A model generated the notes under the pieces. That model was not told the origin of the DNA, searched no databases, and saw only the letters and a program-made list of their open reading frames with translations. Positions 26,778 through 35,678 of a DNA stretch of 64,000 nt are shown one piece after another. The DNA comes from Sulfolobaceae archaeon (GTDB lineage Archaea; Thermoproteota; Thermoprotei_A; Sulfolobales; Sulfolobaceae): the NCBI GenBank assembly GCA_026627305.1, contig JAPNVD010000030.1, forward strand, positions 30,759-94,758. The letters are read 5' to 3'. The position numbers and the translations under genes were made by a program. How positions within the stretch are numbered: the first letter of the stretch is position 1; each line of letters begins with the position of its first letter.

Positions 26778-27812
26778 ATGATTCCTAAGCTAGGAAAGAT
26801 AAACAGAGATATATTTGATAAAGTGATATATCCTCACTTAGGTTTTACACATGAGGAAGTAATAGTGCCACCTACTCATGGTGTAGATACAGGGGTAATA
26901 GATCTAGGGGATGGAAGAGTATTAGTAGTGAAAACTGATCCCGTATTTATTGTCCCACAATATGGTTTTAAAAAGTCCGCCTGGTTTGCTGTACACATCT
27001 TAGCTAGTGATGTGATGACATCTGGTATACCCCCTAGATATGCACTTATAGATCTAAACTTGCCTGTAGATATGAAGGATTCTGAGTTTGAAGAGATGTG
27101 GCTTGGAATAGATGAGGCTCTTAAAGAGATCGGAGTAATGGTAGTTGGGGGTCATACGGGAAAATATGAAGGCACAGGGTATCCAATGCTGGGAGGATTT
27201 ACGATGATGGGAATAGGACCAAAGGATAAATTTGTCACGTCTAAAGGTGCTAGAGTTAATGATGATATAGTTGTAACTAAAGGACCAGCAGTAGAGGCTA
27301 CTGCCCTATTGGTTAATACATATCCAGATTATTTTAGGCAAAAGTTAAGTCCAGATGTGTTTAAAGAGGCTTATGATATGTATTGGAAGATGAGCTGTTG
27401 GAAAGATGGTTTGATAGCCTCAAATATTGGTGTTCATGCTATGCATGATGCAACTGAGGGAGGGTTATGGGGAGCTCTAACTGAAATCGCAGAAGCGAGC
27501 AATAAACATTTGCAAATTTATGAAGATAAGCTCTTTATGTATAGGGCTGTACGTGAAGTAACGTCTATAGTTAACATTGATCCTTATTCTTCAATAAGCG
27601 AAGGGACTTTAGTGATAATTACGCCTTATGGAGATAAAGTAGTTGAGTCGTTAAAGAAAGAAGGAATTGATGCAGGAATAATAGGCAAGGTGATTGATGA
27701 AGGTGCTAAGGTAACGCTTGTGAAAAAAGATAGCTCTAAGAGCGAAATTAGGCACCCAGAAGAGGATCCGTTCTGGTCAGCCTTCTTCGAGTTAGCTCAA
27801 AGGGTTAAGTAA
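26778..27812 (+). CDS. AIR synthase-related (PurM/HypE/ThiL fold) protein
   Basis: VKTDPVF...[43 protein letters not shown]. Confidence 0.88.
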
Positions 27813-28702
27813 CCCAATACTCTAGGTTTTCCTGGTTTTACGTTAACATTTATAACAGGTATTTTTCCTGCCCTTATGGGTATTGGATTGTTGAGAGTAA
27901 CTTTAGTTTTATCGTTCTCCTCTTTTATTTCACCAGTGAATGAATTTCCATAATATATTATATGCGTCATAGATGTAGCTTGAGACCATGGATATTTTGT
28001 GAAACTAGCTTCAAATTCCTTAGCAAACTTTACCTCTGGCTTAACCAAGAAATACGTATCTTTAACCTCCTCCTCTTTGACGTTTTTAAGGGCAAAACCT
28101 ATCCTTGTCCCGCTTTTCACCTCCTTCTGATCTTCATCAAGAACTTGTATGCTCTTTACTTCAACTTCTTTTCCGTAAGGTAAGGCAACTAGTTTCTCAT
28201 GAACTTCCACTGGGGTATATGTAAATCCTGTTACTACAGTACCTACGCCTTTTACAGTGAATACTCTATCAACATATATTATTCCTAAATCGTCTTCAAC
28301 ATTTTCATTTGAAGGCTCAACAATTTCATTTAATATTTCTGGTTGTACTGATAGCTTTACATCTTTTAATAGTTTATTTATCATTTCCTGCTGAAGCTGT
28401 GAAACTATAATTATCTTCTTAGTGTTAACAGAGTTTGCTAGAAGTAATAACTCTCCATCTGTCCACTGCAAGTTAACAGGTAAATGAAGTATTATGGTTG
28501 AAGCTAACGTGGCTGATTCCGCAGTATCTAATATGCTTTCAGGATATTGTGAAGGAACTAGCACTGACCTTATATATTCTCCATGCTTTCTATAGTAAAT
28601 TCTTGTTTTCTCTTTTTCATGTAACTTCCCTAACTTTTCTGCTATACTCTCTCTTTCTTTTTCATCACTACCTATAACTGCAAATATTTCTCCATAGTAC
28701 AT
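27797..28702 (-). CDS. SelB/EF1A-like protein lacking GTPase motifs (aSelBL-like)
   Basis: Domain [24 protein letters not shown]...[11 protein letters not shown]...[11 protein letters not shown]; no P-loop or NKxD. Confidence 0.8.
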
Positions 28703-28796: not shown

Positions 28797-29510
28797 GTGA
28801 AACTATTCGTAGGAACCTCTGGTTGGATGTACCCCTGGAATGAGGGAAATAGTCTAAAATGGTATTATGAGAGGACAGGGCTAAACGCTGTGGAGCTCAA
28901 TATGTCATTTTATCGTTTTCCCAATTCTAGGCAGATCAATTCGTGGTCTAAATACAAACTGTCATGGTCTATAAAAGTTAACAGGTTAATTACTCATACG
29001 TATAAGCTTAACGAAAAAGGAATAGAACTATTGAGGAAGTTTATTGATATAGTGAAACCCCTAAACCCCGATAATTTGCTATTCCAATTACCCCCATCTT
29101 ATTCCGCAAAAAACGCTGATCATGTTATAGATGTTATAAATAGTCTGAAGTTGCATGATATCGCGGTAGTTGAACCTAGGCACTTATCTTGGTTTGAAGA
29201 AAAAATATATTCACTTTTTAGAAAAAATGATATAACTTTAGCCAGTATTGACTCTCCTCTTGGCGTATATATCGTAAATACTACAGGTAAGATTTATTTA
29301 AGGATGCATGGAAGAACTGAGTGGTATATGTACGATTATTCAGTTAACGAAATAGTTGAGGATATTAATAAAATCATGGATCTAAAACCTGAGGTCACTT
29401 ACGTGTTTTTCAATAATGATTTATGGATGTTAGAAAATGCTAAAATTTTGGTAAATATGTTTAAAAACAGAGGAATAGAGTTGACACCATTAAGAGGTGA
29501 TGAAATTTAA
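28797..29510 (+). CDS. DUF72 protein
   Basis: VGTSGWMYPWNEG...YYERTGLNAVELNMSFYRFP. Confidence 0.92.
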   Translation: MKLFVGTSGWMYPWNEGNSLKWYYERTGLNAVELNMSFYRFPNSRQINSWSKYKLSWSIKVNRLITHTYKLNEKGIELLRKFIDIVKPLNPDNLLFQLPPSYSAKNADHVIDVINSLKLHDIAVVEPRHLSWFEEKIYSLFRKNDITLASIDSPLGVYIVNTTGKIYLRMHGRTEWYMYDYSVNEIVEDINKIMDLKPEVTYVFFNNDLWMLENAKILVNMFKNRGIELTPLRGDEI

Positions 29511-30657
29511 AGTAGTATTATGTAGCCTCAGTAGTGATGTAATCTTAAAGTCAGCTAGAAGTAGGGCTAGATTTCAAAACATATTACTCAAGAATGTAAA
29601 AAATGCATTACAGCGTAGAAACATTCCGTACTCTGGCATATCATATGACGAGGCTAGGCTGGTTATAGTTACAGAAAAAGTTGAAGAGGTAAGCCAGATT
29701 ATGACAAGAATATTCGGTATACATGGTGTTACAATAGCCGAGATGTTTACATTTACTAATGTCCAAGATCTCGTAAGTAAAGTTACAGATATAGCTAGAG
29801 AATGGGTAAAAGGGAAGAAGTTTGCTGTAAAAGCCAGGAGAAGTGGAATCGAAGGTATTACTAGTTTAGATCTAGCTAAGCTAATAGGAGCATCACTTTA
29901 TTCCTATTCTTCTGGTGTAGATTTAGATAATCCTGATGTTGAAGTCCATGTGGAAGTCAGGTCAAATAGAGCTTACGTACATAAGGGTTTTATAAAGGGT
30001 GCAGGTGGAAATCCCATAGGTGTGGAAGGAAAGGCTCTAGTGCTGTTTTCAGGAGGAATAGATTCTCCTGTAGCTTCGGTTTTAGCGGCCAAAAGAGGTC
30101 TAAAGGTTGATTTTCTTCACTATATCTTAGCTTCAGACAAGTCAAAGGAGGAGGCGTTGAAGGTAGCAAAGTTAGTTAAGGATAATTGGCTTTTAAGCTA
30201 TGATCCAAAGATGTATTTCATTGATTTAAGAAATGTAGTATTGGAAATCCTAAATCAGGTCAATTACACGTATAGGCAAGTAGTCTTAAGGCTTAGTATG
30301 TATAAGGTTGCTGATATATTTGCTAGAAATAAGGGGTATGATCTAATCTATACAGGTGAAAGCATAGGGCAAGTCTCTTCTCAAACGGCTAAGAATATTA
30401 AGGCCATCCACGCAGTGTCTCAACCCCTATTGCCCATAATTAGACCTTTAGTAGGAATGGATAAGGAAGAAATTATTGATCTAAGTAAAAAATATGGTTT
30501 GTTTGAAGAATCCTCTAAAACTCACGAGTATTGTAGGATTGCATCTAGAGGTCCTGTTGAGACAAGGGCTAGTATTGATAAACTTAAGAAGTTTTATGAA
30601 AAATTGAACCCCATTATAGAAAAAGTTGCTCAAGAATATGAAGAAGTAGACGTTTAA
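29497..30657 (+). CDS. thiI: tRNA 4-thiouridine synthetase ThiI (no rhodanese domain)
   Basis: THUMP region, LVLFSGGIDSPVASVLAAKRG PP-loop, TGESIGQVSSQT. Confidence 0.93.
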   Translation: MMKFKVVLCSLSSDVILKSARSRARFQNILLKNVKNALQRRNIPYSGISYDEARLVIVTEKVEEVSQIMTRIFGIHGVTIAEMFTFTNVQDLVSKVTDIAREWVKGKKFAVKARRSGIEGITSLDLAKLIGASLYSYSSGVDLDNPDVEVHVEVRSNRAYVHKGFIKGAGGNPIGVEGKALVLFSGGIDSPVASVLAAKRGLKVDFLHYILASDKSKEEALKVAKLVKDNWLLSYDPKMYFIDLRNVVLEILNQVNYTYRQVVLRLSMYKVADIFARNKGYDLIYTGESIGQVSSQTAKNIKAIHAVSQPLLPIIRPLVGMDKEEIIDLSKKYGLFEESSKTHEYCRIASRGPVETRASIDKLKKFYEKLNPIIEKVAQEYEEVDV

Positions 30658-30685: not shown

Positions 30686-32092
30686 TCATTCTTCTAATAA
30701 CTTGAATTGCTTTAACACGTTTTCTCTCTCAATTAATTTTACTGTGTCCTTTGGCACATATACTGTACCATTACCTCTACCTAAAACTTTTCCTATTATC
30801 ATGGGTTCTTGACCTTCTTTCTTAAGCTCTTCATACACCTGGTCTACTACTTTCTTATGTGCAAAGATAACAATAGCACCATTTGTTCCTGCTGTGGAGT
30901 TAGGTATTATGAAGTTTTCAGTAGCGAACTCGCAAAGTCTTCTGTCTATTACTGGGATTTGGTCAAGTTTAACATCAACGTTAGCCTTTTCTGCAAATTC
31001 CTTTACTACAAATATTCCAGGCCCTGTTACATCAGTTGTCATAGCTATATGTTCTTTTTCGTCAAAGGGTTTTCCAAACTCTGGCAGGTGATTGTAAATT
31101 ATTTTCCCCACAGCGATATTAGGTGTTTGCATATACCTAAGTGCCCTTCTCTTGATCTCCTCTAACTCGTTGTAACGGATTCCATAATTGTTCTCCATCA
31201 TATCTAATAGCTCAGTTACTGACAATACCCACATGTTGACGTTTATCGGTGTTAGCTCACCAACAGGTCTACTGACTAATATTTCCATTCCTTCAGTAAC
31301 TCTATTATAGAACATGGGCAGTTCGTGGTCTGATTTTCCAATGACTGTAGCACCTATCATTAGGCTGTTTGTATTAGGTTGTATTTCATTAACCAAGTTT
31401 ACATTATATTTTTCTGCAAAGTTTCTAAATCCTTGAAGCAGTTTCTCCTTTAGTTCTTCAGATGGTGCATCAGCAACTGGTAACATTGCCAAATCCTGTA
31501 TGGCACCTTTTGTGAATAAGTCATTTAAAGCATTAGAAACGGCAACATCTACTTGCATTTGTGAACCAGGATCCTCCATAGGATCTACTATTTGTATAGT
31601 ATCATTGTTCATTACTGTATAGGAATTCTGTTCTTTGCCATTAAGCTGAACTAGGTCTATTATAGCTACTTCCGCAAAGGGGTTAGATGTAACTATCGAA
31701 TGTCCTTTACCTATTGTAAGTTTTCTCCTAGTCTTTATGGAACTGTAAACCTTTAGTAAGAATTTAGAGAAATACTCTGGATTGTTTGCGGTCCTCTGAT
31801 TAACCTGGATTAAGCTAATAGCTCTATCAGCATCGAATTCTCCTCCATTGATGATCCTTTTTATCTTCATCTCATCTCTGGAGACAAAGTAATCAACGTC
31901 TTCTCTAGGCGATATCTCAATGTTGATCTTTCTCAGCTCTTCCCTGATTTTTTGAAGGGCTGGATAAACTGTATCTATTAAGTCCACTTTTACTGCACAA
32001 CCAGTAGCTAAGGAAAAGGGGTTTAAACCAAGTTTTTTATACTTTTCCATGTTAATTCTGAATTTTTCAATTAGTTTGGTAGTATCCATCAA
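30686..32092 (-). CDS. Selenophosphate synthetase (SelD)-like protein
   Basis: ATGCAVK (Cys32-x-x-Lys35), [34 protein letters not shown]. Confidence 0.82.
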
Positions 32093-32342: not shown

Positions 32343-34190
32343 ATGTCTGGTTTAAAGATTGTCGTTCCGGTTAAGCAGGTGCCTGATGTCGCTGATTTGA
32401 GGATCGATCCAGTTACTAATAATCTTATTAGAGAGGGTGTACCTGCTGTTCTTAATCCCCCTGACTATTACGCAATAGAAGAGGCTATAGAATTAAGGGA
32501 GAAGTATGGTGGTGAAGTTATAGTAATAACTATGGGTCCCCCACAAGCTGAAAGCGCGTTAAGAGAAGCGATTTCTATGGGGGCTGATAAGGCTTACTTA
32601 ATAACTGACAGGATGATGGCTGGAGCTGACACATGGGCTACATCTTACACGATATCCAAGGCTATAGAAAAATTGGGTGGTGCTAATCTATTATTATTCG
32701 GTAGGAGAGCCACAGATGGTGAAACTGAACAGGTTCCTCCTCAAACTGCGGTGTGGCTCGGTTTACCTTTCGTAGGTTATGTAAGTGAGATTAGAGAGAT
32801 AGACTTAGACAAGAAGAAGGCGATAGTGAAGAGGACTACTGAGTTCGAGGAAGAAGTAATAGAGGTACCTATTCCTGCAGCTTTTAGCATTTTAGAGATA
32901 GCTAATAAACCAAGGATACCTGATATTAAGAGTTTAATTAGAGCAAAAAAGGTGGAAATACCAAAGTTAACGAAAGATGATATTGGAGCTGAGCCTGAAA
33001 AAATTGGTCTGAAAGGTTCTCCAACATTAGTCGTTAGGGTATCTCCTCCTCCTAAGATTAGAAATCCTGAAGTGTTTGATGCTAGATCTAATCCTGAAGA
33101 GGGTGCAAAATGGTTCTTAAATAAGATGTTAGAGTCGTTAAGAAGTGCTTACGCAGAGTTAGAAACTTATGTTAAACCTCAACCGAAGACAAAGGTGGAA
33201 GGGGAAGTATGGGTTTATGTCGATCATATAGGTCCTAAGCCAAACCATACATCTTGGGAAATAATGAGCGAGGCAAGAAAGGTAGCTGACATGCTATCTA
33301 CATCTTTAGCTGCTGTAATTGTAGGGGATGAGTTAGATGAATTAGTTGAGGAAGCTTTTGAATATGGAGCTGAAAGGGTGTATTATGCCAGAGTAAAAGG
33401 GTTCCAAAGATACAATAACGAGGTTTATAGGAGGGCTTTAAAGACGTTAATTAAGAAGTACAACCCATACGTTATGTTCTTCCCTGGTACTAGTAGTTCT
33501 AGAGAGTTAGCTGCGAGCACAGCTATAGAAGTAGATACTGGTTTAGCTGCAGACTGTACTGCATTTGATGTCGATAATAAAGGGATAGTCTATGCAATAA
33601 GACCAGATTTTGGTGGGAAAGAACTATCAACTATCATATGCCCAAAGAAGAGACCATTCATGATAACTGTAAGATCCGGTGTGTTCTCTCCATTAGCAAG
33701 GGTAAAGGGTAGAAAAGGAGAATTAATAGTTGAAAACATAGAGGATACTAATACAAGGATAAAGACCTTAGAATATAAACCGTTAGAGAAGAGAAATATA
33801 CTTACTGAGAGCGATATAGTAGTAGGGGTTGGAAGAGGTATAAAGAAGCCAGAAAACATTAAGCTAGCCGAGGAATTAGCGAGTGTTTTAGGCGGTGTGG
33901 TTGGCGTAAGTAAGCCATTAGCTGATCTAGGTTGGTATCCGAAGGAGAGACAAGTAGGTCAGACTGGGACATCTATAAGACCTAAATTATACATTGCGTT
34001 AGGAATATCTGGCGCAATACAGCATTTAGTAGGAATACAAGGAGCTAAAAAGATAGGTGCTATAAATATAGATCCTCAAGCTCCAATATTCGAAAACTGT
34101 GATTTCGGAGTAGTTGGAGATCTATTTGAGATAGTTCCGATACTTATAAAAGAGTTAAAGGAATTAAAGGAGAGTGGGAAACTTGCCTGA
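32343..34190 (+). CDS. Electron transfer flavoprotein, fused beta-alpha subunits
   Basis: PVKQVPDVADLRIDP (EtfB), GVVGVSKPLADLGWYPKERQVGQTG...ALGISGAIQHLVG (EtfA). Confidence 0.95.
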   Translation: MSGLKIVVPVKQVPDVADLRIDPVTNNLIREGVPAVLNPPDYYAIEEAIELREKYGGEVIVITMGPPQAESALREAISMGADKAYLITDRMMAGADTWATSYTISKAIEKLGGANLLLFGRRATDGETEQVPPQTAVWLGLPFVGYVSEIREIDLDKKKAIVKRTTEFEEEVIEVPIPAAFSILEIANKPRIPDIKSLIRAKKVEIPKLTKDDIGAEPEKIGLKGSPTLVVRVSPPPKIRNPEVFDARSNPEEGAKWFLNKMLESLRSAYAELETYVKPQPKTKVEGEVWVYVDHIGPKPNHTSWEIMSEARKVADMLSTSLAAVIVGDELDELVEEAFEYGAERVYYARVKGFQRYNNEVYRRALKTLIKKYNPYVMFFPGTSSSRELAASTAIEVDTGLAADCTAFDVDNKGIVYAIRPDFGGKELSTIICPKKRPFMITVRSGVFSPLARVKGRKGELIVENIEDTNTRIKTLEYKPLEKRNILTESDIVVGVGRGIKKPENIKLAEELASVLGGVVGVSKPLADLGWYPKERQVGQTGTSIRPKLYIALGISGAIQHLVGIQGAKKIGAINIDPQAPIFENCDFGVVGDLFEIVPILIKELKELKESGKLA

Positions 34191-35388
34191 ATTTGATGTA
34201 GTAGTAGTTGGTGCGGGACCAGCGGGTTCAGCTGCTGCTCTTTCGGCAGCAAAAGCAGGAGCTAAGGTGCTTGTTATCGAGAGAGGTCCAGAGCCTGGCG
34301 CTAAAAACGTTTCTGGTGCTAGAGTAAGGTTAAACACTGTAAAGAAAGTATTTGATATAGCATCTGTTCAAATTGAAAGGAAAGTTGTAAATGAAAGATT
34401 CCTATTCGTATCCCAGGGAAGAAAAGTTAGTATAGATATTCAGACTAAGCCCGATATTTTGGCAACTGTTAGTAGGCTAAAATTTGATGGATCTTTAGCG
34501 AGACAGGCAGAGAATGCTGGTGCTTTAATAGTTACTAAAACAACTGCCTTAGGTTTAGAAAGACAGAATTCTGAAGAAATATCAGTTGTAACGGATAGGG
34601 GCAATGTAACTGCAAAGTCAGTTGTTTTAGCAGAAGGAGCAAATGCTTTAATCTCAATGAGTTTAGGGATAAGGCCCGAGTTCTCCCAGGATGAGGCAGT
34701 GGAGGTTGCTAAGGAAGTTTATTTGTTAAATAAAGATGAAGTAAACAAGAGATTTGGTTTGCCAGATGATTATAGTGGTACGAGTTGGGAGATACTCATA
34801 GATTCTCCAATACCTGCAATGGGTTTCTTATATACCTATAGGGATTCTGTTGCCATTGGCGTTGGCGCTACTATAAGGTCTTTAGTAAGCGTTAAGATGA
34901 AGCCTTATATCTTATTGGAAGAATTTAAGAAGGCGATAAACTTCGGAGAGCTTGTAAAAGGAGGTTCACTTAGAGAATATTCTGCTAAGATAATTCCAGA
35001 AGGAGGATATCCGGAATGGAGCATATGTAGAGAAGGTATTTATCTAGTTGGGGACGCTGCTGGTTTAGTTAACGCTCTAGTATTAGATGGAATAGGCCCT
35101 GCAATAGTTTCTGGCGCTTTAGCAGGTAAGGCGGCTGTTGAAGGTTACGGTTGCGAGAGGTATGAGCAAGAATTAGCTAAGTTGCCCGAGATTCATTCAG
35201 TAGCGGTTTCAAGACCTGTTATTAAAACTATGCTTTCAGATACATCTAATTTAGCTCTATATGCGAAGCTTATTCCTGACATATTTGATGCGTGGTCAGC
35301 TAATGATTTAAGCTCTCTGAGCTATATAAAAGGCAAGTTACCAGACTTGTTAAAATTAGGACTCAACTTGTTAAGGGTGATATCATGA
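34174..35388 (+). CDS. fixC: FixC-like Etf:quinone oxidoreductase flavoprotein
   Basis: DVVVVGAGPAGSAAALSAAKAG, GDAAGLVNALVLDGIGPAI. Confidence 0.93.
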   Translation: MGNLPEFDVVVVGAGPAGSAAALSAAKAGAKVLVIERGPEPGAKNVSGARVRLNTVKKVFDIASVQIERKVVNERFLFVSQGRKVSIDIQTKPDILATVSRLKFDGSLARQAENAGALIVTKTTALGLERQNSEEISVVTDRGNVTAKSVVLAEGANALISMSLGIRPEFSQDEAVEVAKEVYLLNKDEVNKRFGLPDDYSGTSWEILIDSPIPAMGFLYTYRDSVAIGVGATIRSLVSVKMKPYILLEEFKKAINFGELVKGGSLREYSAKIIPEGGYPEWSICREGIYLVGDAAGLVNALVLDGIGPAIVSGALAGKAAVEGYGCERYEQELAKLPEIHSVAVSRPVIKTMLSDTSNLALYAKLIPDIFDAWSANDLSSLSYIKGKLPDLLKLGLNLLRVIS

Positions 35389-35678
35389 GTATAAAAATAG
35401 AGGAAAAACTATATACGTTAAGGTATAAAAGAGATGATCAACCTCATTTAATAATAGCAAATCATCAAGTGTGTTTGAAGTGCGAATCCACATATGGGGT
35501 TCCACAGCCTTGTGTTAGCATATGTCCTGCTGATGTGTACTCTTGGGATGAAAACAAGATTGTGGTTGCTTACGAGAATTGTGTTGAGTGTGGGGCTTGT
35601 AAAATAGCATGTCCTTATAATAACATCATCTGGAAGTTTCCTAGATATGGACAAGGAGTATCGTTTAGATACGGATAA
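35385..35678 (+). CDS. fixX: FixX-like ferredoxin
   Basis: CLKC...CVSICP and CVECGACKIACP; overlaps fixC. Confidence 0.93.
   Translation: MSIKIEEKLYTLRYKRDDQPHLIIANHQVCLKCESTYGVPQPCVSICPADVYSWDENKIVVAYENCVECGACKIACPYNNIIWKFPRYGQGVSFRYG

Follow-up and report, generated by a model that had tools for sequence, protein, structure and literature searches.

A crenarchaeal "SelD-like" family was described in 2014 by Li et al. (PMC4210487), who reported it as exclusive to Sulfolobales and Thermoproteales, noted its SelD cysteine and proposed thiophosphate as its product. The same authors recorded SirA/TusA, DsrE-like, rhodanese and peroxiredoxin-like genes as neighbours and an acylphosphatase fusion in Thermoproteales, and they weighed a reading of the family as selenophosphate synthetases that was left unsettled. 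Monothiophosphate has stood as a proposed biological sulfur donor for this family since 2014; a 2022 review (PMC9312934) cites only that proposal on the product, and our literature search found no experimental test of it. If monothiophosphate is made, archaea would possess a sulfur-based equivalent of selenophosphate; if selenophosphate is made, archaeal selenium use is much wider than thought.

Here we analyse a member of this family encoded in a 64,000-nucleotide stretch of DNA from a Sulfolobaceae archaeon (the window), whose source genome comprises 1.9 Mb in 41 contigs and is about 80% complete. The gene is an ordinary orthologue of the already described archaeal SelD offshoot, to which it adds one more member. 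The first-pass annotation had proposed a repurposed SelD making selenophosphate or thiophosphate that may define its own subfamily. Kinship with SelD and the hypothesis stand in outline, and the protein is indeed separate from SelD and longer, but neither idea is new, as the family was named and the hypothesis published in 2014, and the family is covered by the NCBIfam equivalog model NF038049.

The window gene and its surroundings

The SelD-like gene, its relevant segments and its neighbours in the window are:

30686..32092, minus strand: SelD-like protein of the NF038049 family, 468 aa from TTG (HMM, tree, motif)
31988..31999, minus strand: C-x-x-K codons, C32 to K35 (TTG numbering), aligned with E. 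coli SelD C17/K20; coordinates computed from the ORF start
31688..31987, minus strand: residues 36-135, from the CxxK loop to the AIRS core, ending near the invariant GKGH (SelD alignment, model secondary structure)
29497..30657, plus strand: ThiI, tRNA 4-thiouridine synthase, convergent (TIGR00342, 276 bits, cut-off 264.5)
27797..28702, minus strand: SelB-like elongation factor of the aSelBL type, within 2 kb of the SelD-like gene (TIGR00475, 61 bits, cut-off 242)
32343..35678, plus strand: divergent ETF/Fix-type cluster of a 615 aa ETF-like protein, a 404 aa FixC-like flavoprotein and a 97 aa ferredoxin-like protein (judged from sequence)

Against NF038049 (SelD_rel_HyperS) the protein scores 699 bits (cut-off 250) over model positions 1-464 of 465, and it shares with the family of Li et al. 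its length, its C-x-x-K motif and its lack of selenium traits. Pfam PF00586 by itself reaches 21.3 bits, under its cut-off of 24, so that Pfam leaves the protein unclassified; a match to HNF-1_N (E 0.028) was dismissed as chance. A PDB sequence search with the single window protein returned no meaningful match, and a search with an alignment profile matched SEPHS1.

The listed start codon of the ORF is TTG, with an ATG one codon in, at 32089; if this ATG is used, Cys32 and Lys35 renumber to C31 and K34. Both sequence blocks cited in the first-pass annotation, ATGCAVKV with C32-x-x-K35 and EFAEKANV, are found in the translated ORF, and the first aligns with C17/K20 of E. coli SelD. Cysteine occurs only twice in the 468 residues, at positions 32 and 387. 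The protein had also been called longer than canonical SelD, and both the alignment and the structural model confirm this, placing about 90 added residues after the CxxK loop and ahead of the N-terminal AIRS core.

The surroundings of the gene (ThiI, aSelBL and the ETF genes) are not conserved across the family, and the locus differs from those of its relatives in being without the TusA and rhodanese genes present there; queries for TusA, YedE, rhodanese and acylphosphatase gave no tblastn match within the window. ThiI was rejected as a functional partner, being found beside a SelD-like gene elsewhere only in one Ignisphaera genome (two loci). The SelB-like factor, whose aSelBL type has been described (PMC3037878) and which has no Pfam match, was likewise set aside, with no counterpart clustered at other SelD-like loci. 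Within the window, a second AIRS-superfamily protein is encoded 3 kb from the SelD-like gene (26778-27812); it falls below every curated cut-off (HypE 82, ThiL 79 and SelD 73 bits), and in the tree it joins a Halobacterium 'AIR synthase family protein' (99/99).

Kinship with SelD and its active-site residues

HMM scores alone do not order SelD and HypE clearly. Two SelD models gave the window protein 72 bits (cut-off 291) and 31 bits (cut-off 125), the HypE model 39 bits (cut-off 252) and the ThiL model 23 bits (cut-off 184), so that the comparison suggested in the first-pass annotation puts a SelD model highest, but with the second SelD model below HypE and every score far under its cut-off. 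An AlphaFold2 model built from 13 orthologues (mean pLDDT 91.9, pTM 0.91) falls below a pLDDT of 50 only at residues 29-33, the loop with Cys32, and SelD/SPS chains make up all of its 14 top PDB fold matches (E 3e-19 to 1e-14), followed by HypE (5.5e-14), ThiL (2.6e-13) and PurM (4e-12). In a maximum-likelihood tree of 42 proteins, including SelD-like proteins, SelD, HypE, ThiL, PurM and other AIRS proteins, an 18-row SelD-like group is supported at 97/98 with the window protein inside the Sulfolobaceae rows (100/99), and the SelD-like rows form one group with a haloarchaeal branch (100/99). The neighbour of the SelD-like group is SelD (99/98), and the two together are set apart from HypE, ThiL, PurM and other AIRS proteins at 94/98, a sister status that is supported rather than proven, given the tree-program warning of long branches meeting at this join. 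The protein thus groups with SelD and not at the PurM or HypE position against which its identity had earlier been set, and fold comparison and phylogeny support SelD, rather than HypE, ThiL or PurM, as its closest superfamily kin.

Conservation of the cysteine and lysine in orthologues, another point raised earlier, is complete, and the motif is not a chance match: all 60 of the SelD-like proteins compared carry C32 and K35, even the distant haloarchaeal ones with 22-27% identity. Residues corresponding to D91, D227 and N87 of E. coli SelD are retained as well (D191 and D354 in 60/60, N187 in 59/60), so that the family has in common with SelD/SPS (TIGR00476; PDB 3FD5, 2ZOD, 3U0O) its fold, its sister position in the tree and the equivalents of C17/K20, N87, D91 and D227. 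In Acetoanaerobium SelD, an in-frame TGA stands where the Cys is otherwise found (SAG*AAK). The family departs from SelD in its added residues, in scores well below the SelD cut-offs and in two Asp positions, Asp51 and Asp68 (E. coli numbering), which we take to be metal ligands. The Asp51 column holds Glu or Gln in 52 of the 60 proteins, and the Asp68 column, in a poorly aligned stretch, holds Gln or His, and an invariant Asp, Asp164, lies three columns before it. A GKGH(S) motif and Asp65, both without a SelD counterpart, are invariant among SelD-like proteins. Given scores far under the SelD cut-offs, Glu/Gln at the Asp51 position and the absence of selenium-pathway markers described below, the window protein is not SelD itself.

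The divergence of the D51/D68 region from SelD would also fit an AIRS kinase or dehydratase acting on another substrate, such as an acyl-phosphate or carbamoyl compound in a HypE/HypF-like manner, with the cysteine in another role. An acylphosphatase gene near the SelD-like gene at many loci from hyperthermophiles (18 of 48 named loci), and fused to it in Thermoproteales (PMC4210487), is in keeping with such a substrate, as is the acylphosphatase-like domain of the HypE partner HypF (a HypF match was seen). We nevertheless judge this unlikely, since tree and fold put the protein with SelD: HypE, ThiL and PurM share the AIRS superfamily fold but have lower fold and HMM scores (HypE reaching 39 bits against its cut-off of 252) and lie on a separate branch, and the window protein, with Cys only at 32 and 387, is without the C-terminal Cys carrier of HypE.

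A regulatory or structural role has been proposed for human SEPHS1, and the window family might similarly have lost chalcogen chemistry. The entry 9hjt, an SEPHS1 complex on DNA, is among the PDB matches and shows such a fate to be possible for the fold. For the archaeal proteins, however, we consider it highly improbable, as the C, K, N and D residues are invariant over very divergent archaea and linkage to sulfur genes recurs.

Selenium traits and gene linkage in relatives

We surveyed selenium markers in 231 genomes of the window genome's class using model cut-offs. The SelD-like gene is present in 58 of these, and canonical SelD in none. SelU, SepSecS and YqeB are each over cut-off in 0/231 genomes, with the window genome about 80% complete, while the controls matched as expected (E. 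coli for SelU and YqeB, M. jannaschii for SepSecS). Therefore, no known SelD-dependent trait accounts for the SelD-like gene, and the earlier description of the lineage as one without known selenium use agrees with the absence of the markers of three known selenium pathways from these 231 genomes.

Among 48 named SelD-like loci, TusA is directly adjacent in 34 and no more than two genes away in 39; acylphosphatase (18 loci), a fused YedE-type transporter (17) and rhodanese (12) are also neighbours, and the gene order YedE-TusA-SelDL-AcyP recurs. At two Sulfolobaceae loci (L043, L045), genes for TusA, an SQR-like flavoprotein, DsrE and a DUF1641 protein lie directly upstream. The PF04143 transporter is found in 47 of the 58 carriers versus 12 of the 173 other genomes of the class (Fisher P 4e-27, a value that ignores the relatedness of genomes). 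The two also vary together within single genera, as in g16, where three genomes have both and three have neither; genus g10, from the same family as the window genome, runs counter to this, with the transporter in 3/3 genomes and the SelD-like gene in 0/3.

Taking together the predicted fold, ancestry, the invariant C-x-x-K, part of the Asp/Asn set and the linkage of relatives to TusA-type carriers, rhodanese, DsrE, YedE-type transporters and acylphosphatase, we propose with moderate confidence that this SelD-like (SelD_rel_HyperS) orthologue has a common ancestor with SelD and acts as an ATP-dependent chalcogen-phosphate synthetase, with sulfide as the likelier substrate and selenide as a possible one. 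Cys32 would receive sulfur from a TusA-type carrier or from sulfide, phosphate would be transferred to this sulfur by Lys35 and the Mg-ATP site, and the monothiophosphate released would serve an acceptor as activated sulfur. The main reason for favouring sulfide over selenide is that the known selenium pathways are absent.

Alternatively, the family could be a true selenophosphate synthetase serving an unrecognised archaeal selenium trait, such as a selenium metabolite, a tRNA base or a molybdenum cofactor, a reading that we regard as possible but doubtful. The invariant C-x-x-K agrees with it, and the operon YedE and TusA proteins score higher with selenium YedE/YedF models than with thiosulfate TsuA/YeeD models, although all scores are below cut-off. 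YedE has been described in the literature as a gene of selenium traits (PMC5322559), and true selenium SelD is itself accompanied by TusA in the TusA-selD-yqeB arrangement of haloarchaeal plasmids. Molybdenum-hydroxylase genes lie directly beside the SelD-like gene in some Sulfolobaceae (L039, L041, L040, L061), as they do near haloarchaeal SelD, and the haloarchaeal branch takes the place of true SelD in a Rhodococcus-type gene set (see below). Weighing against selenophosphate are the absence of SelU, SepSecS and YqeB over cut-off from the class genomes, the active-site Asp51 that is not kept and the rhodanese, DsrE and SQR-like neighbours, which speak for sulfane sulfur. As TusA and YedE occur with both sulfur and selenium systems, gene context does not choose between the two elements.

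Two further arrangements were observed among relatives. At L039:9311-14500 and L041:9256-14436, the SelD-like gene is followed by a three-gene molybdenum-hydroxylase cluster, by its sequence of the CoxM/S/L type, in a layout that recalls selenium-dependent molybdenum hydroxylase loci. A block in marine Thaumarchaeota (L083, L084, L085, L088) combines a Sulf_transp transporter, TusA, two beta-propeller-type proteins and the SelD-like protein with one or two more TusA genes and a rhodanese.

Distribution and the haloarchaeal branch

A species-genome scan extended the SelD-like family to MAGs that carry the labels Thaumarchaeota/Nitrososphaerales (marine ALOHA, groundwater), Geothermarchaeota and Euryarchaeota; individual MAG labels may be incorrect, and the single "Marinimicrobia" contig was probably assigned to the wrong bin. 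The range is thus broader than that reported in 2014, and because it includes marine and groundwater Thaumarchaeota, "hyperthermophilic sulfur reducers" is too narrow a description and was dropped as an explanation of function. In Vulcanisaeta sp. JCM 14467, the SelD-like gene (L104:9977-11361) is split into two overlapping ORFs by a frameshift or sequencing error.

The distant haloarchaeal relative, at 22-27% identity and annotated as hypothetical, is carried on seven plasmids, with the C/K pair kept in the four proteins read (4/4). A cytidylyltransferase-like gene lies directly downstream in 7/7 plasmids, and acyl-CoA-dehydrogenase-like and apgM/PhpG-like genes precede the SelD-like gene in the 3/3 Halobaculum plasmids read. 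On a Rhodococcus rhodochrous plasmid, the same three partners surround a canonical SelD, which has 42% identity to the E. coli enzyme; the partners match their Halobaculum counterparts at up to 43%, 40% and 34% identity. The loci are:

L119:5393-9925, L121:5342-9985 and L122:4817-9486: four-gene set on Halobaculum plasmids
L120:7959-9846: SelD-like/nucleotidyltransferase pair only, Halorussus
L131:5669-9865: four-gene set with true SelD, Rhodococcus

SelD and the SelD-like protein appear to fill the same place in this set, an interchange that supports, without proving, a chalcogen-phosphate product. The set has the look of a pathway, so far undescribed, that leads to a P-Se or P-S metabolite in nucleotide-activated form, and a literature search, conducted mostly without subscription journals, found no paper on it. 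Tentatively, and with less probability than we would need to favour it, the whole SelD-like clade might be an alternative chalcogen-phosphate synthetase standing in for SelD: the product of the four-gene set would be a thiophosphate or selenophosphate metabolite activated by a nucleotide, and in Sulfolobales and Thaumarchaeota the family would supply the same activated donor to some pathway.

The wider range, the TusA/YedE linkage and the haloarchaeal four-gene branch are additions of the present analysis to the 2014 description. The wider distribution and the four-gene set offer organisms and partners for testing the product of the family, and the haloarchaeal/Rhodococcus set merits more attention than the window gene.

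A related cytidylyltransferase-like gene also occurs with genes for a PEP/pyruvate-binding protein and a radical SAM protein (L132:5983-10346, L133:2436-5737); in the Treponema version of this locus, the radical SAM protein is of the viperin family and a cysteine desulfurase is present as well.
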